From assembly GCA_016218685.1 (NCBI GenBank), contig JACRDD010000020.1, forward strand, positions 62,001 through 126,000: a DNA stretch of 64,000 nt. Direction: 5' to 3'. This DNA comes from Desulfobacterales bacterium (GTDB taxonomy: Bacteria > Desulfobacterota > Desulfobacteria > Desulfobacterales > Desulfosarcinaceae). The translations under genes were made by a program, and so were the position numbers. The notes beneath the pieces are model-generated. The model saw nothing but the letters and a program-made list of their open reading frames with translations, searched no databases and was not told the origin of the DNA. This document shows positions 37,747 to 55,263 of the stretch, piece by piece (within the stretch, counting starts at the first letter, position 1; every line of letters begins with the position of its first letter).

Positions 37747-39456
37747 ATGAAAAGCACAGGCCTCAGGTTGTCCATCATCGCCCTTTTGTTGAGTTTGGTC
37801 CCAAGTTGTTTTGCGATGGGCACCCAACCCCCGACAACTCCCGTTTATGAATCCCAGGTCCTCACCCGCGCCGAAATCGACGAATGCTACAGCACTCCCG
37901 GTCAATCTTTCGTTCCCGGCCCGAATTGCGGCATCGGTCAGAGGCCCAAAGCCAACCAATCCTATCTGTGGGGCCTGGCAAAGTCCGGCGACAATCTGTG
38001 GATCGGCACTGGGTCCAACATGCTGTGCGTGATGTATGCTTACGCCGCTTACAACCAGGGCATGACCGAGAAAGAGGCCACCCAGAACGACATGTGGGCC
38101 TGCGAATACTCAGCGGGCCGATACATAGAAGAACAATTGGGCATTCCCGCGCCGGCCCTGTTCAACGATTTTCGCCCGCCCAAAATTTACACGTACAATC
38201 TGGGCACCAAAACCTTGACGGACCAAACCGGCCAGATCACCAACCCCCTGGCGGTGGGCCTGCTCAAGAGCACATTCGGCCTGCGCTCGGCCGCGGCCTT
38301 CGGGAATGTGGTCTTTTTAGGCGGCCCCCTGGCCTTGGGCAAAGGCATCAATCTTTGCGCCTTCAACGCCACCACGGGGGCTTTTATCGGCGCCAGAAAC
38401 CTGGCCGCATATCAGAACGTCCGCCGTTGGCTGGTATATAACGGTGCCCTTTATGCGGCCGTGGCCAACGAGGCCGGTGGCGGCAGGGTCCTGCGCTGGA
38501 CCGGCAGCGACACCGCTCCCTTTGCCTTCGAAGAGGTGGGCGCAATGGATGCCGGCGCCGTGGAGATCGCAGCCCATAACGGCCGCCTCTATGTGGGCAC
38601 TTGGCCCGATCGCAATGCGGATAACCCTCCCCCGGCCGGCTTGTGGATGAGCCCGGCGGTGCCGGCGGGCGGTTTGACCGCGGCGAACCTCAATAGCTGG
38701 CAAAAGGTATGGAATGTGGGCAATTACGAGCCCGATCCCGTCATCAGAGGGCTCTACGGCATGGGCGCCATGGCCTCCTATGGCGGCTATCTCTACTGGG
38801 GCACCATGCACTCCCCGGCCGCGGCCTTCGGCGCCCTGGTTAAAAGATACAATATCAGCAGCCTGGGAATTGCCCCGGCCTTCTTCAACGGCTGGCGGGC
38901 TGCGGCCATCTTCAGGGCCGCCGATCCCGGCGCAACCGCCAAGGTCGAACTGCTCTATGGCGATGCCAATCTGCCGGTTTTCGTCTCCCCCGCCTTGGGC
39001 GGCATCTGGACCTACCGCCCCAACAACATGAGTGGCGCGGCCGGAAAGTACGGCACATCCGGTTTCGGCAACCTGTACAACAATTACACCTGGACCATGG
39101 CGGTTTATAAGGACCAGTTGTACGTGGGCACCATGGACAACTCCTATTTGTGGCTCGATTGGGACAATCTCTTTTTCGGTTGGCTCGAAGACCAGTATTT
39201 TTCCATTCCACCGCTCTGGACCCCGGATGAGGAAGAGTACGGCGCCGACCTGTGGCGCTTCCCGTCGGCCAGCCAGGCCGCCGTGCGCATGACCCGCAAC
39301 GGGTACGACAATTACTTCAACTACGGCTTCCGCACCATTCTGGCCGACGATGCCACCGGCCTCTACCTGGGAACGGCCAATCCGGCCAATATCGCCCGGG
39401 ATACGGACGGCACACTGCTTGGAGGGTGGGAACTGATTCGACTGATCCAGCGCTGA
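37747..39456 (+). CDS. Secreted protein with repeated beta (propeller-like) segments
   Basis: A 569-residue exported protein: signal segment 1-24 (LLLSLVPSCFAMG; the cysteine has a poor lipobox). The mature part has repeated blocks such as GDNLWIGTGSN, NGALYAAVANEAGG, NGRLYVGTWPD, GGYLYWGTMHS and KDQLYVGTMDN, each about 60-90 residues apart. They look like blades of a beta-propeller with YVGT/YWGT strands. No enzyme motif was recognised. The GMC flavoprotein gene follows after 40 bases, so the two may work together on one substrate. Confidence 0.7.
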   Translation: MKSTGLRLSIIALLLSLVPSCFAMGTQPPTTPVYESQVLTRAEIDECYSTPGQSFVPGPNCGIGQRPKANQSYLWGLAKSGDNLWIGTGSNMLCVMYAYAAYNQGMTEKEATQNDMWACEYSAGRYIEEQLGIPAPALFNDFRPPKIYTYNLGTKTLTDQTGQITNPLAVGLLKSTFGLRSAAAFGNVVFLGGPLALGKGINLCAFNATTGAFIGARNLAAYQNVRRWLVYNGALYAAVANEAGGGRVLRWTGSDTAPFAFEEVGAMDAGAVEIAAHNGRLYVGTWPDRNADNPPPAGLWMSPAVPAGGLTAANLNSWQKVWNVGNYEPDPVIRGLYGMGAMASYGGYLYWGTMHSPAAAFGALVKRYNISSLGIAPAFFNGWRAAAIFRAADPGATAKVELLYGDANLPVFVSPALGGIWTYRPNNMSGAAGKYGTSGFGNLYNNYTWTMAVYKDQLYVGTMDNSYLWLDWDNLFFGWLEDQYFSIPPLWTPDEEEYGADLWRFPSASQAAVRMTRNGYDNYFNYGFRTILADDATGLYLGTANPANIARDTDGTLLGGWELIRLIQR

Positions 39457-39496
39457 ACGCCCGACATCCGAATTGCAAACTCCATGGGAGCTTTCT

Positions 39497-40798
39497 ATGC
39501 GCGACGACATCTCGACGACTCATGACGCGATCATCGTAGGGTCCGGCCCCGGCGGTGCCTCGGTGGCCAAGGAACTGGCCGGCCAGGGCCGACGCATTTT
39601 AATGCTGGAGAGGGGCGACAACGCCCCCATCAAAGGCTCCCTGTTCCAGGTGGCCACCAACGCGGGCATCCCCGGCCAGAGCCTGCTCTTTACGAACCTT
39701 TCCCTTCTGGCCATGGTGCGGGGCCTGTGCACCGGCGGCAGCTCCATCTTCTACTGCGCCACGGCCTTCGACCCGCCCTATGCCATGCTCGAGGGCTACG
39801 GCATCGACCTGCGCCGGGAGGTCCAGGAACTCAAAGCGGAGATTCCCATCGCCCCGGCCGAAGAGCGCCTGATGGGGCCGGGCGCGCGTCTGATGATGCA
39901 AAGCGCCCGCCAACTGGGCTACCCCTGGCACAAGCTCAACAAGTTCATCTATCAGGACAAATGCCGGCCCGATTGCAGCCTGTGCAGCTACGGCTGCCCC
40001 CACGGCGCCAAATGGACGGCCCGCAACTATGTCGAACAGGCCGTGGATCAGGGCATGACCCTGGTCAACGGCGCCCGGGTCACGCGCATTCTCTTCGAAG
40101 GCGATAAAGCCGTGGGGGTGCGCTACCGCAAGAACCTGCAACGTCACGATGTCTTCGCCAAACGCATCGTGGTGGCGGCCGGCGGCGTGGGCTCGCCCAA
40201 GATTCTGCGCCGCAGCGGCTTGGACCGGGCGGGCTACGATTTCTTCTTCGACCCCCTGATCATGGTCTTCGGCACCGTGGACGGATTGCAAAGCAAGGGC
40301 GAAATCCAGATGTCGGCCGGCGTGCACATGCAATCCAGGGGCTACCTGATGGTGGACCTCAATTTCCCCACCCCCATCTACCTGGGCCAGAGCCTGCCCA
40401 AGCTGCGGCTGGACAAAGCCTTCTCCCAGTCCAATACCCTGATGATGATGATCAAAATCAAGGACGAGTTGGGCGGCCATACCACGGCCTGGGGCGGCGT
40501 GCGCAAAAGCCTGCGGGCCGAAGACCAGGCCAAGCTTAAAGACGGCTATACGCATGCCGCCCGCATCCTTAAAAACGCCGGCGCCAAAGGGATTTTCAGC
40601 GGCTGGACCGTGGCGGCCCACCCCGGCGGCACAGTCAAGATCAGAGAGATGCTCGACAGCAATCTCAAGACCGAGAAGCAAAATCTGTACGTCTGCGACT
40701 GCTCCGTGATCCCCGAAGCGTGGGGCCTGCCGCCCACCTTGACCCTGCTGGCCCTGGGGAAACGGTTGGGAAGACATCTATCCGGACAGATGCAATGA
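39497..40798 (+). CDS. GMC-type FAD oxidoreductase with four-cysteine cluster
   Basis: A 433-residue flavoprotein. The N-terminal FAD fingerprint is IIVGSGPGGASVAKEL (12-27). The C-terminal end has the GMC layout: a catalytic-type histidine in AAHPGGTVKI and the FAD-contact LYVCDCSVIPEAWGLPP. Between them, C156, C160, C163 and C167 (CRPDCSLCSYGC) form a compact set that probably binds an Fe-S cluster. Most GMC alcohol oxidases lack it; anaerobic dehydrogenases with such inserts pass electrons to a one-electron carrier. No signal peptide is present. It sits 38 bases before the helical gene that opens the reductase set. Confidence 0.8.
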   Translation: MRDDISTTHDAIIVGSGPGGASVAKELAGQGRRILMLERGDNAPIKGSLFQVATNAGIPGQSLLFTNLSLLAMVRGLCTGGSSIFYCATAFDPPYAMLEGYGIDLRREVQELKAEIPIAPAEERLMGPGARLMMQSARQLGYPWHKLNKFIYQDKCRPDCSLCSYGCPHGAKWTARNYVEQAVDQGMTLVNGARVTRILFEGDKAVGVRYRKNLQRHDVFAKRIVVAAGGVGSPKILRRSGLDRAGYDFFFDPLIMVFGTVDGLQSKGEIQMSAGVHMQSRGYLMVDLNFPTPIYLGQSLPKLRLDKAFSQSNTLMMMIKIKDELGGHTTAWGGVRKSLRAEDQAKLKDGYTHAARILKNAGAKGIFSGWTVAAHPGGTVKIREMLDSNLKTEKQNLYVCDCSVIPEAWGLPPTLTLLALGKRLGRHLSGQMQ

Positions 40799-40836: not shown

Positions 40837-42309
40837 ATGATGCGGAACCGGACCCTGCCCGAAACAGCCGAACAGCAACGCAGCGAGGCCCAGCTTGCCG
40901 CCCTCGTGGCGGATCTGCTCAACAGCGCCGAACTGCGAGGACTGGCGGCCGCCGTCGGCCGGCACTGGCTGGGCGATTGGAGCGACCACCATCGCCTGAA
41001 ACGCCTCCTGGCCAAGCCCGCGGCCTGGGCCTTGTCCAAAAGCCTCGCGCCTTCCGATGGAACCCCGCTGACCGAACGTTTCCAAAAGCCGGAATGCGTC
41101 GAAACCCTTTCGGCCCAATGGCCCCAAATGCGCCAGGGCCTGGGCACCCTGCTGCGTTCGCTGGTGGCCGCGGTGGAAAAGCTTCCCACCGAGCGCAAGC
41201 AAGCGCTGCTCGACCGGATGCTGGCCGGCCCGGAGGGTGTCGACGATGGCGCGGAGTATTCCCCGTTGGCCGGCCTGGCGCGCATTGCCGAAGATCTCTA
41301 CCGGCATGATCCGCTCTTCTTCTCGACGCGCCTTTCGCCGCTGCTCGACCGATGGCTCGGAAGCACCGATTTCGGCGAGCTGCATGCGCTGCTGGAGGCC
41401 GGCCGGGAGGATCTGCGCGCGTTGATCGGGCAGGCCATCGGCATGCTGTTCGAGTACCCGGCCAAGCTCGTGGCCCTGCTGTCCCTGGTGCCCGACGGCC
41501 TGAACCTCGCGCTCGGCGCGCTGCATGACCTGCTGGGACATGTCAACACCCTGCCGCCCGATATCTTCACCGACCTGCTGCTCTCCATCTACCGGCAAGT
41601 GGATGCCACCCTCATCGGTCAAAGCATCAACCGCGCCAATGAAGCCATCCGCCAGATCCACACCGGCAGCACGCTGATCGGCGAAATGGATGCGCCGCGC
41701 TTCTCCAGCGATCTGAGGGACAAACTGCGCGAAGTCGCGGCCCAGATCGACCCTGCGCTGGCCATCAAGGCCCGCGCCGCCCTGATCGACAGCCGCGAAG
41801 CCCTGATCCGCATCCTCATCGAGACGACCCAGGAGCACCCGGACCTTTTGAACCTCTGGCTCCAGCAGTTGGCCGTGGGCCGCAATGCCGAGATCCGCCT
41901 CTTCAAACGCAAAATCGAAGTGCTCGAAACCCTGCCCGCCGATGACGCTATCGAGGCGCTCTGCGCCGGTCTTTCCAGTTGGAACGCCTACGATCTGGCC
42001 GAAACGGTCAACAGCCTGGCCCGCCTGGCCAACCGCATCGGTCGGCTCACGCCCGGGGTGTTCAAATCTCTGGTCACCGAGTTTGTGAACACCCTGGATC
42101 TGGATGAACTGGAAGAGAGCCTGGCGGGGCTCGCCCCGGATCTGGCCCGCGCCGTCCGGCCGGTCTTCCGCCGGCTCGCGCCACCGCTGATCGGCGAGCT
42201 GTGCGCCCTCTTCGAGCCCGGCGCAGAAGATGACGGCTGCGACGAGACCATGCACGAGGCCCGCGAACGGCTGCGCCGTTTGCTGCGCGGCGAGGAGCAA
42301 AAGCGATGA
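40837..42309 (+). CDS. Helical protein of unknown function, first gene of the reductase set
   Basis: A 490-residue soluble protein rich in Leu, Ala and Arg, nearly all predicted helix, with no signal sequence, cofactor motif or cysteine cluster (only scattered Cys). Segments such as ALLDRMLAGPEG and LANRIGRLTPGVFKSLVTEF suggest repeated helical hairpins. Two ATG codons open the frame (40837 and 40840). Its end overlaps the next start by 4 bases (ATGA), so it is translated with the D-component gene. An assembly or scaffold role is a guess from position only. Confidence 0.7.
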   Translation: MMRNRTLPETAEQQRSEAQLAALVADLLNSAELRGLAAAVGRHWLGDWSDHHRLKRLLAKPAAWALSKSLAPSDGTPLTERFQKPECVETLSAQWPQMRQGLGTLLRSLVAAVEKLPTERKQALLDRMLAGPEGVDDGAEYSPLAGLARIAEDLYRHDPLFFSTRLSPLLDRWLGSTDFGELHALLEAGREDLRALIGQAIGMLFEYPAKLVALLSLVPDGLNLALGALHDLLGHVNTLPPDIFTDLLLSIYRQVDATLIGQSINRANEAIRQIHTGSTLIGEMDAPRFSSDLRDKLREVAAQIDPALAIKARAALIDSREALIRILIETTQEHPDLLNLWLQQLAVGRNAEIRLFKRKIEVLETLPADDAIEALCAGLSSWNAYDLAETVNSLARLANRIGRLTPGVFKSLVTEFVNTLDLDELEESLAGLAPDLARAVRPVFRRLAPPLIGELCALFEPGAEDDGCDETMHEARERLRRLLRGEEQKR

Positions 42310-43445
42310 CCGCACTGTTGAGCCAAGCGGCCCAAAGCATCGACCTGGAACCGCTGCGGGCCTTTAAGGCGGCCGGGGGCCGGCTGGTCGGCTACACCTG
42401 TACCTTCCTGCCGGTGGAAGTATTTCACGCGGCCGGCCTGGTACCGGTCCGGCTGCGCGGCATCGGCGCCGAGAGCCTCAACATCGCCGATGCCTATTAC
42501 GGACCGTTTGTCTGCACCTTTCCCAAGGCATTGCTCCAGCAGGTGGGCACGCACCACTATGCTTTCCTGGATGGCGCCGTGATTACCGGCGGCTGCGACG
42601 GCATGCGGCGCCTGAATGAATGCTGGCGCAAGCTGGGGGCCGACATCCCCGGCGTGCTGCCGCCCTGGTTCCATTACTTCGATGTGCCCCACAAGCCGGA
42701 GGGCGTGGCCCTTTCGTGGTATCAAGATCAGGTACGCAAGCTGATCGATGCCGTCCAAAACGCCTTTGGGGTGCGCATCGACGAAGAAGCCCTGGGCCGG
42801 GCCATCCGCCAACAGAACCGCGTGCGCCAAAAACTGTGGGATCTGGCCGAGCTGCGTTGCCGTCGGCCCGCGCCGATCTCGGGCAGCGAAGCCTTCGAAG
42901 CCCTCATCGCCCGCAATGTACTGCCGCCCGATCGCTACCTGGACGAACTGGACCGCCTGCTCGCAACGGTCCAAAACCGGGCCGTGCCTTCCTCGGATCG
43001 CCGCCGGCGACTCTTCGTCACCGGCAGCATTTGCGACGACCTGGCGCTGGTCCAACAGATCGAGGCCGCCGGCGCCGTGGTGGTGGGCGAGAGCGTCTGC
43101 TACGGCCTGCGCAACACCTGCGCCCTGGTGGATGAAAGCGGCGACCCGGTGGCGGCCCTGAGCGCCCACTACCTGTCCGGCTCGGTCTGCCCGCGCATGT
43201 TCGGCTACTACGCGGAGCGCCGGGCCACCATCACCGAACGCATCCGCCAGACCGGCGCCCAGGGGGTGGTCCTGCAGAACATTCGCTTTTGCGACCTGCA
43301 CGGCTCGGAAAACGGGTTGCTGGAACGGGACCTGGAGCAATTGGGCGTGCCGACCCTGCGCATCGAAAAAGAGTATGGCGCCCTGACCGAAACCGGACGG
43401 TTGCGCATGCGCATCGAGGCTTTTTTGGAGCAGTTGGAAGCATAA
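42306..43445 (+). CDS. Benzoyl-CoA reductase / 2-hydroxyacyl-CoA dehydratase family, C/D-type subunit
   Basis: A 379-residue protein of the BcrC/HgdB family. These proteins carry [4Fe-4S] (or double-cubane) centres and bind acyl-CoA or similar substrates that receive one electron at very low potential. The family pattern is visible: VGYTCTFLPVEVFHAAGLVPVR (split motif, C32), YGPFVCTFPKALL (C70), FLDGAVITGGCDGMRR (C97) and late NIRFCDLHGSE (C329). It is the first of two catalytic-type subunits, followed after 16 bases by the larger one. The natural substrate cannot be read from the sequence. Confidence 0.8.
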   Translation: MTALLSQAAQSIDLEPLRAFKAAGGRLVGYTCTFLPVEVFHAAGLVPVRLRGIGAESLNIADAYYGPFVCTFPKALLQQVGTHHYAFLDGAVITGGCDGMRRLNECWRKLGADIPGVLPPWFHYFDVPHKPEGVALSWYQDQVRKLIDAVQNAFGVRIDEEALGRAIRQQNRVRQKLWDLAELRCRRPAPISGSEAFEALIARNVLPPDRYLDELDRLLATVQNRAVPSSDRRRRLFVTGSICDDLALVQQIEAAGAVVVGESVCYGLRNTCALVDESGDPVAALSAHYLSGSVCPRMFGYYAERRATITERIRQTGAQGVVLQNIRFCDLHGSENGLLERDLEQLGVPTLRIEKEYGALTETGRLRMRIEAFLEQLEA

Positions 43446-43461
43446 CGTAAAGGAATTTGTC

Positions 43462-44862
43462 GTGCGCCCCGAATTGAAAGAATATCCCCTGGACCAGCTC
43501 TTTGCCCGCACCTTTCAGCTCGCCCGAAAGGCCGGCCGGGCCACGCCCAAGGAGCAGGCCCTGCTGCTCAAAAGCGTGCCCTACGTCAGCGGCCTGCTCG
43601 AACCCATGCTGGCCCTGGGGGCGCCGGCCATCACCTTTCTGGGCATGCTGGCCGACTACTACACCGACCTGATCCATGCGAAGGAGCAGGGCAAGAAGGT
43701 GGTGATGACCACCTTCTGCTTCGACCCCACCATCTTCTACGCCTTCGACAACCTCGTGCCCGTGACCCTGGAGGTGGGCACGGTGATCACCTCCATTCTC
43801 TGGAAACGCGGCGCCTACGACTTCATGGACTTTTGCACCGAGGTGGGTTTTTCCGAGACCGGCTGCTCGTCCCAGCGCGGCACCATGGGGGCCTATCTGG
43901 CCGGCGCAGGGGTCAATATCGACATGGTGGCCGTCAACATGGGCGGCATATGCGACACCAACTCCAACGCCTACAGCTTCGCGGCCCAGTATCTGGGCAA
44001 ACCCTTCTACGGGCTGGATTATCCCGCCGAACTGACCCCCGACGCGGTGCGCGACTACCACCATCAAGACTACCGCGCCCTGATCCGCTTCCTCGAAACG
44101 CACGGAGGGGGCCGCTTCGACATCGACCGCCTGCGGAGCCTGCTGGAAGAAAAGCAGATCCAGGACGAGCTGACCAACGAGATCGAAGAGTTGCAGCGCC
44201 TGGTGCCCAACCCGGTACCGGGCATCTACCACCTCTTGATGTACGCGGGGCGCTACACCTGTTCCGGCAGCCCGACCTTCACGCGCATGCTGCGCGAGAT
44301 GCTGGAGGTCGTTCGCGTCAATGCCCTGAGCGGCGCCGCCGGCCTGGGCCGGCCGGAAAAATGCCGGGCCTTTCTCTTCTACATCGACAACTTCTCGTTC
44401 AACGTGGGCATGTTCGACTGGCTGGCGCGCAACCAGGTCTCCCACATGGGCAGCATGCTCTCGCGCTTCTTCCCCGATAACGCGCCCTACCGCCGGGAGG
44501 TGCCGGGCACCTGCTACACCATCGACACCCGCGGCCTGGACAGCATGATCGACACCCTGGCCGACATCAACGCCCGCATGCCCATGACCCGCACCGTGCG
44601 CGGGCCCTACGACGCGCCCAACATGTGGCTGGAAGACTCCCTCTCCCTGGCCAAGATCTTTAACGCCGAGTGCTGCATCTACAACGGCACCCCCGGCTGC
44701 CGCAACACCTGGTCCAACGTCAAGCTGATCATGCGCGACCTGGAAAAGCACGGCTACCCCACCCACCTGGTGTACGCCGACGCCTTCGACGGCCGGGTGG
44801 AGAGCTGGGAGACCACGGCCATGCGCCTGGATGAATTTTTCAAGATCAGGGGGTTGCTATGA
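43462..44862 (+). CDS. Benzoyl-CoA reductase / 2-hydroxyacyl-CoA dehydratase family, B/A-type subunit
   Basis: A 466-residue partner of the preceding subunit, in the BcrB/HgdA position. It has cysteines at C86 (MTTFCFDP), C125 and C135 (DFCTEVGFSETGCSSQRG), with several later ones (NMGGICDTNSN, YTCSGSP, GTPGCRNTW). It is divergent enough from BcrB and HgdA that I cannot place it in a known substrate group. GTG at 43462 is supported by AAAGGAA. Its last bases overlap the first activator start (ATGA), so subunit and activator are made together. Confidence 0.75.
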   Translation: MRPELKEYPLDQLFARTFQLARKAGRATPKEQALLLKSVPYVSGLLEPMLALGAPAITFLGMLADYYTDLIHAKEQGKKVVMTTFCFDPTIFYAFDNLVPVTLEVGTVITSILWKRGAYDFMDFCTEVGFSETGCSSQRGTMGAYLAGAGVNIDMVAVNMGGICDTNSNAYSFAAQYLGKPFYGLDYPAELTPDAVRDYHHQDYRALIRFLETHGGGRFDIDRLRSLLEEKQIQDELTNEIEELQRLVPNPVPGIYHLLMYAGRYTCSGSPTFTRMLREMLEVVRVNALSGAAGLGRPEKCRAFLFYIDNFSFNVGMFDWLARNQVSHMGSMLSRFFPDNAPYRREVPGTCYTIDTRGLDSMIDTLADINARMPMTRTVRGPYDAPNMWLEDSLSLAKIFNAECCIYNGTPGCRNTWSNVKLIMRDLEKHGYPTHLVYADAFDGRVESWETTAMRLDEFFKIRGLL

Positions 44863-45668
44863 GCATCGTGGCCGGCTGCGACGTGGGTTCCCTGGCCACC
44901 AAGGCCGTCGTCATGGAACGGCGGCGGGTGCTGGCCGCGGTGGTCGTGCGCTCGGGTCCCAAGCCCGGCGCCTCGGCCCGCGACGCCCTGGACCAGGCCC
45001 TGGCCCAGTGCGGCCGGTCGGCCGGCGATGTCTCCTACTGCGTGGGCACCGGCTATGGCCGGGAGAAGATCGCCTTCGTGAACGAGACCCTTTCGGAGAT
45101 CTCCTGCCACGCCAAGGGCGCGCGCTTCCTGGTGCCCTCGGCGCGCAGCGTCATCGACATCGGCGGCCAGGACTGCAAGGTGATCAAGCTGGACGCCAAT
45201 GGCGGCCTGGTCAAATTCGTCACCAACGACAAATGCGCCTCGGGCACCGGCCGTTTCCTGGAAGTCATGGCCAAGGTGATGCACCTGCCCGTGGACCGCC
45301 TGGGAGAGCTGTCGCTCCAAGCGCGCGACCCGGTCACCCTGGCCTCCATGTGCACGGTCTGGGCCCAGGCCGATATCATCAAGCACATCAACGCCCGCCG
45401 GCCCGCGGAAGAGATCTGCGCCGGCATCAACACGGCCATGGCCAACCGCGTGGCCATGCTGGCCAATGCCCTGCGGCTGGAGAACGACATCTGCATGACC
45501 GGCGGCGTGGCCAAGAACAAGGGGGTGGTGCACGCCCTCGCCCGCATCCTGGGCCAGCGCATCAAAGAAGTAAAAACGCTGGACCCGCAACTGGTGGGGG
45601 CCCTGGGCGCCGCCCTGCTGGCTGCGGAGCAGGCGGGGAAAGTCAACCGGAAGGAGTTGCCGCCATGA
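44859..45668 (+). CDS. ASKHA ATPase activator (BcrD/HgdC type), first copy
   Basis: A 269-residue ATP-dependent electron activator. ASKHA phosphate motifs GCDVGSLATKAVV (6-18) and VIDIGGQDCKVIK (98-110) bind ATP; C126 (DKCASGTGR) and C165 (SMCTVWAQ) sit where two subunits hold one shared [4Fe-4S] cluster. ATP hydrolysis fires single low-potential electrons into the catalytic subunits. It overlaps its neighbours by 4 bases on both sides. The presence of two different activators is like BcrA plus BcrD of class I benzoyl-CoA reductases rather than the single HgdC of dehydratases. Confidence 0.85.
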   Translation: MSIVAGCDVGSLATKAVVMERRRVLAAVVVRSGPKPGASARDALDQALAQCGRSAGDVSYCVGTGYGREKIAFVNETLSEISCHAKGARFLVPSARSVIDIGGQDCKVIKLDANGGLVKFVTNDKCASGTGRFLEVMAKVMHLPVDRLGELSLQARDPVTLASMCTVWAQADIIKHINARRPAEEICAGINTAMANRVAMLANALRLENDICMTGGVAKNKGVVHALARILGQRIKEVKTLDPQLVGALGAALLAAEQAGKVNRKELPP

Positions 45669-46438
45669 TCACCGCCGGGGTCGATATCGGCTCCACTACG
45701 GCCAAGACCGTCATCCTCCAGGACCGCGCGATCCTGGCCGCCGCCGTGATCCCGGCCCGGCTCGACCCGGTGGCCTCGGCCCGGGAGGTCATGGATCTGG
45801 GCCTGCAAAAGGCCGGCGTGCGCCAGGCCGATCTGCAACGCATCGTGGGCACGGGCTACGGCCAGCAGCAGATTCCCTTTGCCGCCCGCCTGGAATCGGA
45901 GATCACCTGCCATGCCCGGGGCGCCTTTTTTCACCATCCGGCCGCTCGCACGCTCATCGACATCGGCGGCCAAGACGCCAAGGTCATTAAGATGGACGCC
46001 CGGGGCAAGGTGGTGCAGTACAGCTATAACGACAAATGCGCCTCGGGCACCGGCCGCTTCCTGGAGATCATGGCCGAGGCCCTGGGCGTGGGCCTGGAAC
46101 AGATGGGCGCGGCCGGCCGCACCTGCGTGGAGCGGCTCAGCATCTCCAACCAGTGCGTGATCTTCGCCGAAACCGAAGTGGTGTCGCTGATCAATGAGGA
46201 AAAAGCCGTGGGCGACATCCTCAATGCCCTCTTCCGGGCCATGGCCCACCGTGTGGCCTCCCAGGTCCGCAGCCTGACCGTCGAAGCCGACGTGCTGCTC
46301 ACCGGCGGCGTGGCCAAAAACATCGGTCTTTTCGAGGCCCTGGGCCAGAGCCTGGGCGTGACCCTGCAAACGCCGTCCGAGCTGGACCCCCAGCTCAACG
46401 GGGCTCTGGGCGCGGCCCTGCTGGGTCAGGAGGGCTGA
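45665..46438 (+). CDS. ASKHA ATPase activator (BcrA/HgdC type), second copy
   Basis: A 257-residue relative of the preceding protein. It keeps the ATP motifs GVDIGSTTAKTVIL (5-18) and LIDIGGQDAKVIK (97-109) and the cluster cysteines C125 (DKCASGTGR) and C164 (SNQCVIFAE). The CVIFAETEV segment is closer to textbook HgdC than the first copy's CTVWAQADI. A heterodimer holding one bridging cluster is therefore likely. Start ATG overlaps the upstream stop; the ACS-like gene begins 4 bases after its stop. Confidence 0.87.
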   Translation: MITAGVDIGSTTAKTVILQDRAILAAAVIPARLDPVASAREVMDLGLQKAGVRQADLQRIVGTGYGQQQIPFAARLESEITCHARGAFFHHPAARTLIDIGGQDAKVIKMDARGKVVQYSYNDKCASGTGRFLEIMAEALGVGLEQMGAAGRTCVERLSISNQCVIFAETEVVSLINEEKAVGDILNALFRAMAHRVASQVRSLTVEADVLLTGGVAKNIGLFEALGQSLGVTLQTPSELDPQLNGALGAALLGQEG

Positions 46439-46442
46439 GGCG

Positions 46443-47180
46443 ATGGCGCGCTTCGACGGACTCATCGCCGAGATCCGGGATTTCGTGCGGCAGCAAAAAG
46501 CCGAGGGCCACTGCCGGCAGTTCCCGGCCCTCTCGTCCGTGCCATGGCCCCCGGCCGGTCCCCGGGACATTGTCCTGGGGACCGATCTGGCGATAGAGCT
46601 GGGCCATCCCCAGCAAGCCTCCCTATGTTTCCTGGCCTGGAGCGAAGCGCCACAGGCGATCCGCGCCAATGCCATCACCCTGGTCGGCCCGGACATCCCC
46701 GAAGCCGCTTCCGGCCGCCTGCCGTTGGCCAAGGTCGTGCTGGCGGCCGTGGACCCGGCCGACGACGCGACGGCCTACGAGCGCTACCGGGCCATGGACC
46801 TGGCGCGCTTCGAACTCTCGCTCAAAGGCTACATGCTGCGGGCCACCTCCCAGTACCTGCGCGAGTGGAGCCGCATCAGCCGGGAAGCCGTCCAAAACGG
46901 CTTCTCGTTCCAGATCCTGGGGTCGGCCCTGATCGGCGCCCTCAAGGCCATCCCGGGCGTGCGGGCCGCCGAACTGCTCTTCGTCACCCGCTCGGCCGAG
47001 GCCGTCAACGCCTTGCTGCCCATGGGCACCACGGCCGGCCGCATGCTCCAGGCCCTGAACAAGATGCTGGCCGAACACGAGGCCGATTGCCCCAACTGCG
47101 AATTCCAGGATGTGTGCACCCAGGCTTCCGAAATGCAGGCCCTGGCCCAAACCCTGGCGGCCCGCAAGGCCAAGGGGTGA
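46443..47180 (+). CDS. Acetyl-CoA synthase-like middle-domain protein, truncated at the A-cluster
   Basis: A 245-residue protein resembling, by motif order from memory, the central domain of acetyl-CoA synthase (CdhC/AcsB): DLAIELGHP, then ITLVGPDIPEAASGRLPLA, then ELSLKGYMLRATSQYLREWS, then RISREAVQNGF and ELLFVTRSAEAVNALL. In true synthases a segment with C-x2-C-x8-C opens the nickel A-cluster domain. Here C216, C219 and C225 (CPNCEFQDVC, C-x2-C-x5-C) come at that place and the protein ends 20 residues later, so the nickel site is missing. It may bind metal, a partner or CoA as an assembly factor. The CooC-like gene follows after 5 bases. Confidence 0.55.
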   Translation: MARFDGLIAEIRDFVRQQKAEGHCRQFPALSSVPWPPAGPRDIVLGTDLAIELGHPQQASLCFLAWSEAPQAIRANAITLVGPDIPEAASGRLPLAKVVLAAVDPADDATAYERYRAMDLARFELSLKGYMLRATSQYLREWSRISREAVQNGFSFQILGSALIGALKAIPGVRAAELLFVTRSAEAVNALLPMGTTAGRMLQALNKMLAEHEADCPNCEFQDVCTQASEMQALAQTLAARKAKG

Positions 47181-47185
47181 GGCCC

Positions 47186-47950
47186 ATGGAACCCAGACCG
47201 GTCGTCATCGCAGTGTGCGGCAAGGGTGGGGTGGGCAAGACCAGCCTCAGCGCCCTGATCGTGCGCAGCCTGACCCGCGACCCGGCCCGGCGCGTGCTGG
47301 CCGTGGACGCCGACCCGGCCGTGGGGTTGGCCTACGCCCTGGGCATGCCGGTCGTCAAAACCGTGGACCAGATCCGCCAGGAGCTGATCCAAACCCTGGG
47401 TGAAGCGCCGTCCGCGGACAAGGAAGAGCTGCTGCGCCGCCTGGATTACGACCTCTTCGCGGCCCTCTCCGAACGCGACAACCTGGCCTTTCTGGCCATC
47501 GGCCGGCCCGAAGGCCACGGCTGCTTCTGCCAGGTCAACCAACTGCTGCGCCAACTGATCGGCGACCTGGCCGGCCGTTTCGATGCCGTGGTGATCGACG
47601 GCGAAGCCGGCCTGGAGCAGATCCAGCGCCGGGTCATGGATCTGGTGACCCACCTGCTCGTCGCCAGCGACGGCTCGCTCAAAAGCCGCCGCGTGGCCGC
47701 CACCCTGCACCATATGGCCCGGGAGCTGCCCGACCTGCAAGCCGCGGGCGTGCTCTTCAACAAACTCGCCCCCGTCGAGGAGACTGAGATCCTGGCCGCC
47801 AACCCCCTGCCCCTGATCCACGTGCTCCACGAAATCCCCGCCATCCGCGACTTCGACCGCCGGGGCCGCAGCTTCTTCGATCTGCCCTGGAGCGCCGAAA
47901 TGGCGAAACTGGAGGATGCCGTCTTGCGCTTTCTGAACCCAAGGCCCTGA
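47186..47950 (+). CDS. CooC/AcsF-like P-loop ATPase
   Basis: A 254-residue MinD-type ATPase. The deviant Walker A is GKGGVGKTS (12-20), followed by AVDADPAVGLAYALG. The C-x-C motif C113/C115 (HGCFCQVN) matches the metal-binding pair of CooC, which helps nickel enter CO dehydrogenase or acetyl-CoA synthase. The switch region AVVIDGEAGLEQIQRR is also typical of the family. No CO dehydrogenase is in the window. It ends the overlapped gene set, right after the ACS-like protein, so a maturation pair is likely. Confidence 0.82.
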   Translation: MEPRPVVIAVCGKGGVGKTSLSALIVRSLTRDPARRVLAVDADPAVGLAYALGMPVVKTVDQIRQELIQTLGEAPSADKEELLRRLDYDLFAALSERDNLAFLAIGRPEGHGCFCQVNQLLRQLIGDLAGRFDAVVIDGEAGLEQIQRRVMDLVTHLLVASDGSLKSRRVAATLHHMARELPDLQAAGVLFNKLAPVEETEILAANPLPLIHVLHEIPAIRDFDRRGRSFFDLPWSAEMAKLEDAVLRFLNPRP

Positions 47951-49245: not shown

Positions 49246-52194
49246 ATGCGGCGTGAAAAAGATCGATTCGAGCCCACCTTTAAGATTTTCCATGAACTGA
49301 TGGCCCAACGGGTTCAGGAGATCCTGCTCGTCTCCAGCCCGTATGACGCCTACATCATGGAAGAGGACGGCCGCCTGGCCGGCCGCATCATCCACGAGTA
49401 CCGCGGCCTGAACCTGAGCCGGCCGCCGCGCATCACCTGGGCCTCCTCGGGGCGCGAAGCGCTCCAGACCCTGTCCGGTAAGCCGTTCGACCTGGTCATC
49501 ACCATGACCCGCCTGGACGATGTGGCCCCCGCGGCCCTGTGTGGGGCCATCAAGCGCGACCACGCGCACATGCCTATCTATTACCTTTCCCACGAAGCCT
49601 TGCCCGCGCCGGCCGGGTCGCCCGAGTCCGAGTGCGCCTGGATCGACCGCCGCTTCGTGTGGCTGGGCAACACCGATCTGCTGCTGGCACTGATCAAAAG
49701 CACCGAAGACCGCCTGAATGTGGCCTTCGACACCCAGGCGGCCGGCGTGCGCGTGATCCTGATCGTGGAGGACTCGCCCCTGTACCTCTCGGCCCTGCTG
49801 CCCTTCCTCTACAAGGAGATCGTGCGCCAGACCCAGGCGGCCATGGACGAGACGCTCAACGAAGAGCACCGCATCCTGCGCATGCGCGCGCGGCCCAAGA
49901 TTCTGGTGGCCGAGACGTTCGAAGAGGCCCGGGCCATCTACCGGCGCTACGCGCCGTTCCTGCTCACCGTGCTGTGCGATGCCCGCTTTCCACGCGACGG
50001 TCGCCTGGACCCGGAGGCGGGCCTGGCCCTGCTGGGCGAGATCCGCCAAAACCACCCGGAGCTGCCTTTGATGATGTTCAGCTCGGAGCCGGGCAACCGG
50101 ATGCGGGCCGAAGCCCTGGGCGCCCATTTCATCGACAAGCACGCGCCGGCCCCGCATGCCGAGATCCGCGCTTTTTTCGTGCGCAACCTGGGGTTCGAGG
50201 AGTTTGTCTTCCGCCTGCCCGACGGCCGGGAGGTGGGCCGGGCCGCCGACCTGCGCGCCATGACCCGGGTGTTGGGCACGATCCCGGATGCCGCCATCGA
50301 ATACCACGCCCGCCGCGAGCACTTCTCCACCTGGATGATGGCGCGCATGGAGCTGGAACTGGCCCACACGCTACGGGCGGCCAAGGTGGCCGACTTCGCC
50401 GGCATGGCCCAGTTGCGCGCCTATATCCTGGCGGCCATCGACCGCCAGCGCCGGGAACGCCAGCGGGGGGTGGTGGTGGATTTCAGCCAGGACGACTACG
50501 ACCCGGCGGCCGAATTCGTCAAGATCGGCACCGGCTCCCTGGGCGGCAAAGCCCGGGGCCTGGCCTTTCTCTCGGCCCTGCTCAAGGATGCCGAGGCTTT
50601 GGCGGCTGCCTATCCCAGCGTGGCCATCGGCATTCCGCGCACCCTGGTGGTCAGCACCGACGGTTTCGAGCAGTTCCTGAGTCAAAACCGGCTGCGACCG
50701 GATGCCGTGCAGGGGATGCCCGACAGCGCCATCGAGGCGCTTTTCCTGCGGGCCGCGATCCCCGAAGGCCTGCGGCGCAAGCTGGCCTCGTTTCTGGCCG
50801 CCGTGGCCGGCCCCCTGGCCGTGCGCTCCTCCAGCCTGCTGGAAGATACCCAGGCCCACCCCAGCGCCGGCCTCTATAAAACCTTCATGCTGGCCAACAA
50901 CCATCCCGATTTTGACGTCCGTTTGGCGCAGTTGCTGCGCGCCGTCCAGCGGGTGTATGCCTCCACCTATTTCGCGGCCCCCCGGGCCTTTGCGCGCCAA
51001 TCGCCCTTCGGCCTGGGGGAAGACCGCATGGCCGTGATCGTGCAGCCAGTGGTGGGCACGCGGGCCGGGCCGTACTTCTATCCGGCCATATCGGGCGTGG
51101 CCCAGTCGTTCAACTTCTACCCGGTGGCCTACATGCAGGCCGACCAAGGCGTGGTGCATGCAGCCCTGGGGTTGGGCCGCATCGTGGTCGAAGGCGGTGC
51201 CGCGCTGCACTTCTCACCGCGCCATCCGCGCCTGCTGCCCCAGATCGATACGCCGGCCAAGGCCCTGCGCAACGCCCAGCGAACCTTTTACGCCCTGGAC
51301 ATGGGCCGGGCCGACCAGACCCACATCGATCCGGAGCAGCTCACCGTCTCGCTTGCGGTGGAGGCCATGGCCGATCACCCGGCCGTGCAAACCCTGGCGA
51401 GTACCTATGTGGCCACGGACCAGCGCATCCGCGATACGGCCGCCGCCGAAGGCCGCAAGCTGATCACCTTCGCCTCGGTCCTGAAATACGATCTCTTCCC
51501 CCTGGCCGCCATCGTGACCGACCTGCTGGAGATGGGCCGGCGCGGCCTGGGCTGCCCGGTGGAGATAGAGTTCGCCGTGAACCTGCCCCGCGCTCCGGGC
51601 GAAAAGTACACCTTCGCCCTGCTGCAAGTCCGCCCCATGGGCAAACGCGAGCAGAGCATGTCCATCGCGGTGACGGCCGAAGACGAGCGCCGCGCCGTCT
51701 GCTTCTCCCGCCGGGCCCTTGGCAACGGCTTGCGCCAGGACATCCGCGACATCGTCTTCGTCAAACCCGACGTCTTCGATCCGGCCCATACCCCGGCCAT
51801 GGCCGCCGACATCGCCCGCCTGAACGAAGATCTTGAGCGCCGGGGGCGGCCCTACGTGCTCATCGGCCCGGGCCGCTGGGGATCGGCCGATCCCTGGCTG
51901 GGCATTCCCGTTACCTGGAAGGATATCCGCGGTGTGGCCGCCATCGTGGAGACCACGGCCGCCAACCTCAACGCCGAACCCTCCCAGGGCAGCCATTTCT
52001 TCCACAACCTCACGGCCCAGGGCATCGGCTATTTCACCGTGGCCGGCCCCGATACCGGATTCGTGGACTGGCCGTGGCTGGCCGGCCTGCCGCCCGAGGA
52101 CGAAACCGCCTTCGTGCGCCACGTGGCCCTGGATGAGCCCCTGCACGTCAAGCTCGACGGCAAGTCTTCGGTGGGGGTTATCGGCGACAAGTAA
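49246..52194 (+). CDS. Receiver-like domains fused to PEP synthase-type ATP-binding domain
   Basis: A 982-residue multidomain protein. Two receiver-like domains open it: about 15-150 (ILLVSSPYDAYIMEEDG) and about 165-330 (VILIVEDSPLYLSALLPFL, later LCDARFPRDGRL, MMFSSEPG). A PPDK_N-like ATP-grasp domain follows (about 425-860): IGTGSLGGKARGLAF, VRSSSLLEDTQ and the late LLQVRPM. The phospho-histidine and PEP-binding domains of true PEP synthases are absent. I chose ATG at 49246 (GAAGG upstream) over an earlier in-frame start. gdhA follows after 35 bases. What it phosphorylates is unknown. Confidence 0.75.
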   Translation: MRREKDRFEPTFKIFHELMAQRVQEILLVSSPYDAYIMEEDGRLAGRIIHEYRGLNLSRPPRITWASSGREALQTLSGKPFDLVITMTRLDDVAPAALCGAIKRDHAHMPIYYLSHEALPAPAGSPESECAWIDRRFVWLGNTDLLLALIKSTEDRLNVAFDTQAAGVRVILIVEDSPLYLSALLPFLYKEIVRQTQAAMDETLNEEHRILRMRARPKILVAETFEEARAIYRRYAPFLLTVLCDARFPRDGRLDPEAGLALLGEIRQNHPELPLMMFSSEPGNRMRAEALGAHFIDKHAPAPHAEIRAFFVRNLGFEEFVFRLPDGREVGRAADLRAMTRVLGTIPDAAIEYHARREHFSTWMMARMELELAHTLRAAKVADFAGMAQLRAYILAAIDRQRRERQRGVVVDFSQDDYDPAAEFVKIGTGSLGGKARGLAFLSALLKDAEALAAAYPSVAIGIPRTLVVSTDGFEQFLSQNRLRPDAVQGMPDSAIEALFLRAAIPEGLRRKLASFLAAVAGPLAVRSSSLLEDTQAHPSAGLYKTFMLANNHPDFDVRLAQLLRAVQRVYASTYFAAPRAFARQSPFGLGEDRMAVIVQPVVGTRAGPYFYPAISGVAQSFNFYPVAYMQADQGVVHAALGLGRIVVEGGAALHFSPRHPRLLPQIDTPAKALRNAQRTFYALDMGRADQTHIDPEQLTVSLAVEAMADHPAVQTLASTYVATDQRIRDTAAAEGRKLITFASVLKYDLFPLAAIVTDLLEMGRRGLGCPVEIEFAVNLPRAPGEKYTFALLQVRPMGKREQSMSIAVTAEDERRAVCFSRRALGNGLRQDIRDIVFVKPDVFDPAHTPAMAADIARLNEDLERRGRPYVLIGPGRWGSADPWLGIPVTWKDIRGVAAIVETTAANLNAEPSQGSHFFHNLTAQGIGYFTVAGPDTGFVDWPWLAGLPPEDETAFVRHVALDEPLHVKLDGKSSVGVIGDK

Positions 52195-52229
52195 AAGCAA
52201 TCCAACTACTTCTATAGAGGAGTGCTGCC

Positions 52230-53579
<1,350 letters not shown>

Positions 53580-53593
53580 GCCGTAAAATTCGC

Positions 53594-55102
53594 TTATTCT
53601 TCTTTTCCATTGATGGTCGCCATGATTTCCTTGAAGCTGACCACTGCCGCTTCGAGGTTTTCGATGATGTCGTTGGCCAAGAGATCCGGATCGGGCAGGT
53701 GGTCGAGGTCGGCCAGACTCTTGTCTTTGATCCAGGTGATATCGAGGCTGGTCTTGTCCCGGTTGACAATTTCTTCGTAGCTGAATTTGCGCCAGCGGCC
53801 CTCGGGGTTTTTCTCCGGATGCCAGCTCTCTTTGCGCTTGTTTCGGTTGGAGGGGTTATAACAGACAATGAACTCCTCAAGGTCTTCGAATTTCAGAGGC
53901 GACTTTTTCAGGGTGTGGCGGATGTTGGTGCGGTAATCGTAGATCCACACCGCTTGGGTCCAAGGGTCTTTGCCGGCCGGTTTGTTGTCGAAAAAAAGGA
54001 CATTGGCCTTGACCCCCTGGGCGTAGAAGATGCCGGTGGGCAGGCGCAGGATCGTGTGCAGATCGGTGCTCTCCATTAGCCGTTTGCGGACCGTTTCGCC
54101 GGCCCCGCCTTCGAAGAGCACGTTGTCGGGCACTACCACGGCCGCTTTGCCGGTGGTGTTGAGCATGGTGCGGATGTGCTGCACGAAATTCAACTGCTTG
54201 TTGCTGGTGGTGGCCCAAAAATCCTGACGGTTGTAAGTGAGCTCTTCTTTCTCCTGTTCGCCCGCTTCATTGGTGAAGGTCATGCTGCTCTTCTTGCCAA
54301 AGGGCGGGTTGGTGAGCACATAATCCACCCGCAAGCCGGAATCGGCCACGAGCGAATCGGTGGACAAAATGGAGGTGTCCGCATCGATATCGCCGATGTT
54401 GTGCAGGAACATATTCATGAGCGCCAGTCGGCGGGCGCTGGCCACGATCTCGTTGCCGTAAAAGGTTTTGTTCTTCAGGAAAACCTTTTGCTCCTTGGTA
54501 AGGGTGAAGTTCCTGGGGTTGGAGATAGCGTCGTAGGCGGCCAGGAAAAAGCCGCCGGTGCCGCAGGCCGGATCGGCGATGGTCTTCATGGGCTGGGGCT
54601 GGACACAGGCCACCATGGCCTTGATCAAAGCCCGCGGCGTAAAATACTGCCCCGCGCCGCTCTTGATATCCTCGGCGTTTTTCTCCAGCAGCCCCTCGTA
54701 TATCTTGCCCTTGACGTCCGCGCCCATCACGGCCCACTGTTCCTTGTCGATCATATCGATGAGCTTGAAGAGCTTGGCCGGGTCCTGGATCTTGTTCTGG
54801 CTTTTGGTGAAGATCTGTCCCAGGATACCCTTGGCCCGGGACAGCTCCCGCAGCAAGGTGGTGTAATGGCCTTCCAGGTCGGCTCCCCGCTTGGCGGTCA
54901 GGCTTTCCCATGTGTATGCTTTAGGGATGGCCAATTTTCGATTATAGGGCGGTTTGCTGAACTCATCGGCCATCTTCAGAAAAAGCAGATAGGTCAGTTG
55001 CTCCAAATAGTCGCCGTAACCGACGCCATCGTCGCGCAGGGTGTGGCAAAAGCTCCAGATCTTGCTGATGATGCCGGAGGTGGTGGTGGTTTCGTTGCTC
55101 AA
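53594..55102 (-). CDS. hsdM: Type I restriction-modification DNA methyltransferase
   Basis: N6-adenine methyltransferase subunit that works with HsdS, and with HsdR for cleavage. The N-terminal helical HsdM domain is followed by the SAM motif DPACGTGGF and the catalytic NPPFGKKSS. The frame opens upstream to 55132, but GAGGAA lies 9 bases before the TTG at 55102, giving about 502 residues; no ATG fits. It is the last gene of the island's minus-strand set, separated from the AlbA_2 gene by an AT-rich gap of about 135 bases, so it may have its own promoter. Confidence 0.92.
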   Translation of the reverse strand: MSNETTTTSGIISKIWSFCHTLRDDGVGYGDYLEQLTYLLFLKMADEFSKPPYNRKLAIPKAYTWESLTAKRGADLEGHYTTLLRELSRAKGILGQIFTKSQNKIQDPAKLFKLIDMIDKEQWAVMGADVKGKIYEGLLEKNAEDIKSGAGQYFTPRALIKAMVACVQPQPMKTIADPACGTGGFFLAAYDAISNPRNFTLTKEQKVFLKNKTFYGNEIVASARRLALMNMFLHNIGDIDADTSILSTDSLVADSGLRVDYVLTNPPFGKKSSMTFTNEAGEQEKEELTYNRQDFWATTSNKQLNFVQHIRTMLNTTGKAAVVVPDNVLFEGGAGETVRKRLMESTDLHTILRLPTGIFYAQGVKANVLFFDNKPAGKDPWTQAVWIYDYRTNIRHTLKKSPLKFEDLEEFIVCYNPSNRNKRKESWHPEKNPEGRWRKFSYEEIVNRDKTSLDITWIKDKSLADLDHLPDPDLLANDIIENLEAAVVSFKEIMATINGKEE

Positions 55103-55221
55103 GATGCTGTTCCTCGTATATTCGCCGCTCAATGCGAAGTTCGTTAGATATAGGGCTAATGCCCATCGATATTTAAATTATGAAATTTTACAGGTTGTTA
55201 TACAAAAGAGGGCTTTTTCGT

Positions 55222-55263
55222 TTTATCTAAAGTTTATCTAAAGTTTATCTAAAGTTTGTCTAG
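55222..55263. repeat. 11-bp tandem repeat at the AlbA_2 gene 3' end
   Basis: TTTATCTAAAG occurs three times without error (55222-55232, 55233-55243, 55244-55254), followed by a degenerate partial unit. The stop codon of the AlbA_2 gene (55238-55240) lies inside the array. As 11 is not a multiple of 3, a change in copy number could alter the end of that protein. Confidence 0.8.

Follow-up and report, generated by a model that had tools for sequence, protein, structure and literature searches.

A benzoyl-CoA-reductase-like gene cluster joined to a truncated acetyl-CoA synthase homologue and a CooC-like ATPase in Desulfobacterota

The ATP-driven reductases of the benzoyl-coenzyme A (CoA) reductase/2-hydroxyacyl-CoA dehydratase superfamily carry out reductions that rank among the hardest in biology, and the substrates of only a few members are known. 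Class I benzoyl-CoA reductases (Bzd, Bcr and Mbd; structures 8s02, 8s1t and 8s2r of BzdNO and 9g87 of MbdNO) contain two unlike HGD-D subunits and two unlike ASKHA activators, with six double-cubane cysteines in one HGD-D subunit and the cysteines of an active-site [4Fe-4S] cluster in the other. Acetyl-CoA synthase (ACS; AcsB or CdhC) has a CooC-like ATPase, AcsF, as its partner. The double-cubane cluster protein (DCCP; 6eno, 7yyl) is described as a homodimer with one double cubane per monomer (PMC11971306), and an anaerobic reductase operon with nickel-type chaperones of its own is described for isrA with hypA and hypB, isrA homologues often having hypA/hypB, and sometimes a TetR-type gene, as neighbors (PMC10134865). 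Here we describe a gene cluster at positions 40837-47950 (forward strand) of the window, by which we mean the whole stretch of 64,000 nucleotides that was analyzed (contig JACRDD010000020.1, positions 62,001 to 126,000, of the Desulfobacterales assembly GCA_016218685.1). It encodes two unlike HGD-D subunits and two unlike activators, as in class I benzoyl-CoA reductase, and it differs from those operons by far lower family scores, by an asparagine in place of a catalytic histidine, and by additional genes: one of no known family (A), a flavoprotein gene of the GMC family, a truncated ACS homologue (F) and a CooC-like ATPase (G). The reductase engine is known, and the assembly of parts is apparently undescribed; we did not find this gene set in a limited search of mostly open-access literature, which does not prove its absence there. 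Because the identical order was found again in several families of the phylum, the association of these genes in the window is not chance.

The seven genes, A to G, overlap or lie no more than 16 bases apart, the widest gap (16 bases) falling between B and C; four of the junctions are 4-base overlaps, provided that G starts at GTG. The initial annotation proposed a tight operon of seven genes here, and for A to G the coordinates bear it out. In this lineage, however, the block has eight genes, the overlooked one encoding a GMC-family flavoprotein oxidoreductase with a cysteine-rich stretch (39500-40798, forward strand; alternative TTG start at 39473; Pfam GMC_oxred_N, 79 bits) that ends 38 bases 5' of A. 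This gene is part of the block in several families: it directly precedes A in the window, L044, L043, L037, L042, L041, L105 (family f34) and L121 (f85), and in L123 and L135 (f32) one TetR-type gene stands between GMC and A.

Gene maps were made with local profile models for 48 sequences (the window, 7 near-relative loci and 40 loci of the phylum), 29 of which bear A. The order A-B-C(-C)-D-E was found in 27 of these 29; recurrence of the gene order across genomes, which had been proposed as a check, was thus observed. The two exceptions are L119, whose contig is cut after B and whose genome carries C-D-E-F-G in L120, and L144, which has no E. F and G follow in 19/29 A-bearing loci, with an extra C and an iron-sulfur gene intervening in L105. 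Among the ten A-loci that do not continue to F-G, contig ends truncate four (L039, L119, L124 and L140), and less than 1 kb remains in a fifth (L123).

Two samples of genomes were searched. The first held 60 genomes, the window's own and its relatives, and was searched with C; full-length C stood at seven places far above all others (the window, G010, G007, G046 twice, G042 and G053). Only two of the ten other genomes of the window's genus had it, which is typical of an accessory catabolic system. The second, a single draw from the phylum, comprised 395 genomes and was searched with alignments of F, A and C. A was present in 21 of them, and these same 21 genomes, and no others, held the 34 places at which the C profile scored above 700 bits; the next best place reached 309 bits. 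This profile was built only from C genes beside A or F, and a C that is more distant and lacks A would not have reached that group. A and C of this type (type 1) occur, within that limit, in the same 21 of 395 genomes. F was found at 38 places above 58 bits in 30 genomes, and the matches listed at 47 bits or less were mostly frames of more than 700 residues, with a few shorter ones, that resemble genuine ACS. An F above 58 bits is present in 20 of the 21 A-bearing genomes, the copies in G095, G330 and G444 being divergent and lying beside another reductase set; the A-bearing genome without such an F is G286, whose contig stops just past E. A single scan of genome contigs with C alone, the one search of contigs that extended to other phyla, gave three full-length relatives and one short weak match, and a plasmid search with C gave one distant Rhizobium match (22.5% identity). 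Lone type-1 C genes were also seen at L147:10065-11465 and L148:3408-4805, with no other A-G gene in the stretch examined.

B (42306-43445, forward strand, as are all genes of the block; 379 residues; Pfam HGD-D, 278 bits) is an HGD-D subunit of the double-cubane type, and C (43462-44862; GTG start; 466 residues; HGD-D, 137 bits) is a divergent one. The [8Fe-9S] ligands of BzdN are given as Cys36, Cys73, Cys100, Cys263, Cys293 and Cys327, and the [4Fe-4S] ligands of BzdO as Cys95, Cys128 and Cys380, with Glu65 and His131 as acid/base residues (PMC11971306). All six BzdN ligands have equivalents in the alignment with B (Cys32, 70, 97, 265, 295 and 329), and these cysteines are present in 51 of 52 aligned rows, the remaining row having a gap (rows above 50 bits, B of a second reductase type included). 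The distal-cubane residues Arg53, Arg267 and His330 of BzdN correspond to Arg49, Arg269 and His332 of B. In C, Cys135 and Cys164 align with Cys95 and Cys128 of BzdO. Cys413 is probably the third active-site [4Fe-4S] ligand of C; it falls at the third-ligand place through DCCP alignments only, as the BzdO alignment ends before Cys380, and this place holds cysteine in 61/64 and histidine in 3/64. Glu104 of C comes to the place of BzdO Glu65 by ungapped extension only.

The two activators, D (44859-45668; 269 residues; Pfam BcrAD_BadFG, 199 bits) and the different E (45665-46438; 257 residues; 177 bits), each have two conserved cluster cysteines: Cys126 and Cys165 of D are invariant in 41/41, and Cys125 and Cys164 of E are present in 39 of 40 rows, the last row having a gap. 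With 245 (D) and 232 (E) bits, both exceed the 125.4-bit cut-off of TIGR00241, a general domain model for acyl-CoA dehydratase activases. The Pfam matches and the conserved cysteines agree with the core of two HGD-D subunits and two different activators that had been read from the letters. Evolutionary distances of A to E co-vary pairwise with r of 0.77-0.93 across 16 complete loci, values that shared ancestry also raises. Judged by these sequence features, B to E would be an ATP-driven reductase of the class I benzoyl-CoA-reductase kind, with a core that probably works like that enzyme, though it is not necessarily that enzyme itself.

No subunit reaches the equivalog cut-off of a characterized reductase or dehydratase, an outcome in favor of the initial annotation, which a place within a well-characterized benzoyl-CoA reductase clade with this exact gene set would have refuted. 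Against the NCBIfam benzoyl-CoA-reductase equivalogs B scored 118 bits (cut-off 421, BcrC) and 117 (454) and C scored 24 (487, BcrB), C being far below every named subunit model that it matched; the activators missed theirs at 187 (D) and 173 (E) bits against 380. HadBC-type dehydratase equivalogs were missed as well (88 bits of 700 and 33 of 750), and HadC lacks a counterpart of B Cys265. The best NCBIfam model for B is that of DCCP (NF040772), with which it shares the six cysteines, but at 175.8 bits it scores half the cut-off of 350, C scoring 19.9; moreover, DCCP pairs with itself, whereas here the partner C is unlike B and is without the full six. The block could still be an ordinary operon for degradation of aromatic or 2-hydroxyacyl-CoA compounds, with F, G and A incidental. 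The shared superfamily, four-subunit make-up and cluster cysteines speak for this, as do the TIGR00241 matches and, in L111, a second acyl-CoA dehydrogenase that is weakly nearest to cyclohexane-1-carbonyl-CoA dehydrogenase (98 bits, cut-off 650). However, the low scores of B and C, the replacement of the catalytic His131 of BzdO by Asn167 in C, asparagine being found in 25/25 aligned type-1 C, and the sharing of all 21 genomes by A and C make an ordinary operon distinctly improbable.

A (40837-42309; 490 residues) matched nothing usable in Pfam and NCBIfam, where nothing rose above cut-off, in PHROGs or among solved structures. Of the earlier description of A as a helical protein of no known family, the second part stands, and the helicity comes only from a low-confidence model: a structure prediction from four sequences had a mean predicted local distance difference test score (pLDDT) of 34.4 and was discarded. 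In L106, L108, L109, L111, L112, L113 and L115 A is split into a shorter main gene and small open reading frames matching other parts of A, hinting at internal repeats. We infer from its constant company that A may be a dedicated partner or scaffold of the B-E reductase.

F (46443-47180; 245 residues) is, as proposed, a truncated ACS-like protein, made up of the ACS middle domain and the first part of the A-cluster domain. It matches Pfam CdhC (PF03598) with 29.3 bits against a cut-off of 24, over profile positions 16-134 of 155, and finds ACS in the PDB with an E of about 1e-8 as a profile and of 0.004 as a single sequence; it misses the ACS equivalog cut-offs of NCBIfam. Its C-x2-C-x5-C motif (Cys216, Cys219 and Cys225; 47088-47117) lies at the place of the first A-cluster cysteines and is invariant in 38/38. 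When the profile of 38 F was compared with the ACS of the window's own genome (65 bits, profile positions 63 to 219), the C-x2-C fell on the CTLC of ACS (HMMER), and the third cysteine of F was aligned with the third A-cluster cysteine (MAFFT). F has no N-terminal ACS domain and stops 20 residues past the third cysteine. In ACS, the C-terminal domain is described as binding the A-cluster, with dinickel binding (PMC5298270). A weak NADH-G match had pointed to a His-Cys3 cluster motif in F, which was rejected because the histidine is not conserved; a structure prediction from three F sequences (mean pLDDT 35.2) was discarded.

G runs from 47186 (ATG) or 47177 (GTG) to 47950 and is a CooC/AcsF-like deviant Walker A ATPase (Pfam CbiA/MinD-type). 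Its nearest solved relative is Carboxydothermus CooC (3kje, E 1.1e-12), as expected from the original reading of G as a CooC-like ATPase with a C-x-C pair. GKGG, GKT and C-x-C are present in 31/31 G, and the V of GKGGVGKT in 29/31. Cys112 and Cys114 of CooC bind metal (PMC6006190), and in the alignment to 3kje they correspond to Cys113 and Cys115 of G (47522-47530).

Elsewhere in the window's own genome, on a different contig, lies a full-length ACS gene whose neighbors read like carbon monoxide dehydrogenase and a corrinoid protein, judged from the sequences without a family search; the genome also has two further G relatives of 30 and 36% identity. Because of this full-length ACS and these G relatives, F and G are probably not the Wood-Ljungdahl equipment of the genome. 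A bolder reading would make F a mini acetyl-CoA synthase of a new kind, with an A-cluster-derived center, nickel or another metal loaded by G and possibly cysteines of a partner such as C, catalyzing jointly with the ATP-driven double-cubane reductase. If true, this would join the electron pumping of benzoyl-CoA reductase to an ACS-type organometallic site, for which we know of no precedent; we regard it as quite unlikely.

The neighbors of the block differ among lineages. No acyl-CoA or ring-degradation genes lie beside the window operon, so that the initial statement that no ring-opening or beta-oxidation gene is nearby is true of this operon, but acyl-CoA genes do adjoin relatives. In families f67 and f69, A is preceded by TetR-type genes and, in most cases, by a pair of genes for acyl-CoA dehydrogenases; L114 has the TetR-type genes but lacks the pair, L116 is truncated, and L144 carries genes for GMC, a TetR-type protein and a dehydrogenase after D. 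L041 has a GntR gene and L144 an aldehyde ferredoxin oxidoreductase, and next to F-G in L136, a locus without A, are a thiolase, a CoA ligase, a nitroreductase and a ferredoxin-type protein. A PDB search with one of the acyl-CoA dehydrogenases found general family members only. An inducible CoA-thioester pathway would fit the acyl-CoA dehydrogenase, regulator, thiolase and CoA-ligase genes of these relatives.

Taken together, we favor the following account, to which, as a whole, with B-E as reductase, A as its partner, a flavoprotein and a metal step by F-G, we give a probability of roughly one half. Electrons from ferredoxin would enter the D-E activator pair, and ATP hydrolysis would push them onto the double cubane ([8Fe-9S]) of B. 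The next acceptor may be a [4Fe-4S] cluster of C that is held by three cysteines and leaves one site open; here a substrate of the acyl-CoA type, probably other than benzoyl-CoA, would be reduced. A flavoprotein, GMC here and the acyl-CoA dehydrogenase pair in other lineages, would serve the same inducible pathway. F may be an ACS remnant that holds an iron-sulfur cluster through its three cysteines, and G may load or remodel a metal on F or, through F, on C; that this metal is nickel, the simplest choice, and that F-G act on C at all, is speculative. The system is conserved but patchily spread, and to a known engine it adds A, for which no relatives were found, a stripped-down ACS and a nickel-type ATPase. 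Should F bind a metal center, it would illustrate reuse of the A-cluster domain outside carbon fixation and provide a compact model in which A-cluster assembly can be tested. Were F and G plain iron-sulfur factors, the set would still represent a novel subtype of reductase, in a group of anaerobes with an important role in the carbon and sulfur cycles.

Several observations weigh against this account. Arg290 of BzdN is replaced by Gly292 in B; this and the Asn167 of C mean that the B-C chemistry may differ more than assumed. F is without the fourth A-cluster cysteine and without the CGC dinickel motif, whereas the genome's own ACS continues with GLCG and CGC; we take the CTLC and GLCG cysteines and CGC to be the A-cluster ligands of ACS. 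Five A-loci with at least 2.5 kb of downstream sequence are without F, G or both: L040 retains G alone, and both genes are missing from L037, L108, L135 and L144. The last three belong to genomes that carry F-G at another place (L107, L134 and L116, respectively); those of L037 and L040 were not searched for F. The distances of F and G correlate more loosely with those of A-E (0.47-0.76, in the same 16 loci) than with each other. Finally, the acyl-CoA link comes from gene neighbors in relatives and has no counterpart beside the window operon, some F genes lie beside no reductase gene, as detailed below, and the lone C genes mentioned above stand apart from the rest of the set.

F and G could instead be an iron-sulfur assembly pair that, with no nickel involved, helps to form either the double cubane of B or the cluster of C that has an open site. 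Three of the five A-loci without F-G are in genomes with F-G elsewhere, so that a helper acting in trans is possible. G belongs to the MinD/CooC ATPase group, which includes iron-sulfur carriers, F has a three-cysteine site, and the two genes usually follow or adjoin reductase genes. On the other hand, L040 has G with no F beside it, F occurs without HGD-D in L137, L138 and L149, and the double cubane of BzdNO is described as forming in E. coli from a bzdNO plasmid (PMC11971306). Because BzdNO obtains its cubane there, F-G are unlikely to be needed for that cluster, and we hold an assembly pair of this kind to be a doubtful explanation. Under the account that we favor, the simplest role remaining to F-G would be a metal step, either on C or on F itself. 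The isrA operon with HypA and HypB (PMC10134865) is a precedent for a reductase operon with private nickel chaperones, although reductase and chaperones there are unrelated to those described here.

The surroundings of F were counted for 38 F genes, namely 34 of the 38 places in the phylum and four near relatives; G060:C302, G060:C234 and G100:C103 were not mapped. An HGD-D gene lies within 6 kb on the same strand for 33/38, and G within 700 bases for 30/38. The original reading was to be refuted if F and G usually occurred apart from reductase subunits; the counts are mostly favorable to it, but three loci have F without a reductase. Of the five F without a near HGD-D, those in L107 and L131 lie at contig ends (L131 has an activator), that in L110 has activators near and HGD-D about 8 kb away, and those in L137 and L138 have an acyl-CoA dehydrogenase gene and genes for TRAP solute-binding proteins as neighbors but no reductase gene. 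L149, outside the count of 38, resembles the last two, and the F genes of all three loci are divergent. Twelve F loci (L125-L130, L132-L134, L136, L142 and L143) adjoin a second, more distant reductase type that is without A.

F-G may be a separate unit, since their distances, which correlate with each other at r 0.86 (again raised by shared ancestry), track those of A-E only loosely, as expected of two modules. F-G could then be an acyl-CoA or redox module, for example one handling CoA thioesters with the ACS middle domain, that is merely co-regulated with the reductase. The acyl-CoA dehydrogenase and TRAP neighbors of L137, L138 and L149 suit such a module, as does the presence of F-G beside the second reductase type. 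Yet the nearness of HGD-D to most F speaks for a tie to the reductase, as does an extra C that adjoins F in G216 (L141) and lies one gene from F in G388 (L105), and we consider a merely co-regulated module rather unlikely. The L141 stretch (G216:C300, 5065-11749), a second locus, holds acyl-CoA dehydrogenases with one C and one F but none of B, D, E and G, which suggests that C and F may function together.

Glycerol-lipid reductases that carry ASKHA and HGD-D domains in tandem probably serve lipid building, and the block could similarly belong to a system that builds a lipid or cofactor. GMC and other flavin enzymes lie nearby, L040 has an acyltransferase gene, and the contig is shared with an open reading frame of about 1,500 residues that bears two BcrAD_BadFG domains (G000 contig C3, about 51514-56019; L154:3514-8019), about 6 kb upstream of the window. 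This frame resembles large fused activator-dehydratase proteins that are presumably tied to ether-lipid or plasmalogen formation. The patchy spread within the genus and the TetR and GntR regulators suit catabolism better, and we give a role in building little credence. A further open reading frame, of 569 residues (37747-39456), lies directly 5' of GMC; it has no Pfam match, and no counterpart was found in the nearest relative, L044.

Two more features were seen in the gene maps. A conserved protein of 76-85 residues (core RQRAIDALTLF ... LKERA.LY..RIK), which shows only a weak HEAT-repeat resemblance and was not seen in the window operon, is encoded beside B or C in L108, L112, L113, L115, L116, L118, L122, L139, L140 and L144. 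In families f67 and f69, the region downstream of G holds another reductase set, more distant and with B-like and C-like genes, in L109, L111, L112, L113, L114, L115, L116 and L139; in several of these loci the set includes an iron-sulfur protein and an activator. One gene separates G from this set in L109, L111, L112 and L113; in L111 its product carries flavodoxin and 4Fe-4S domains (Pfam).

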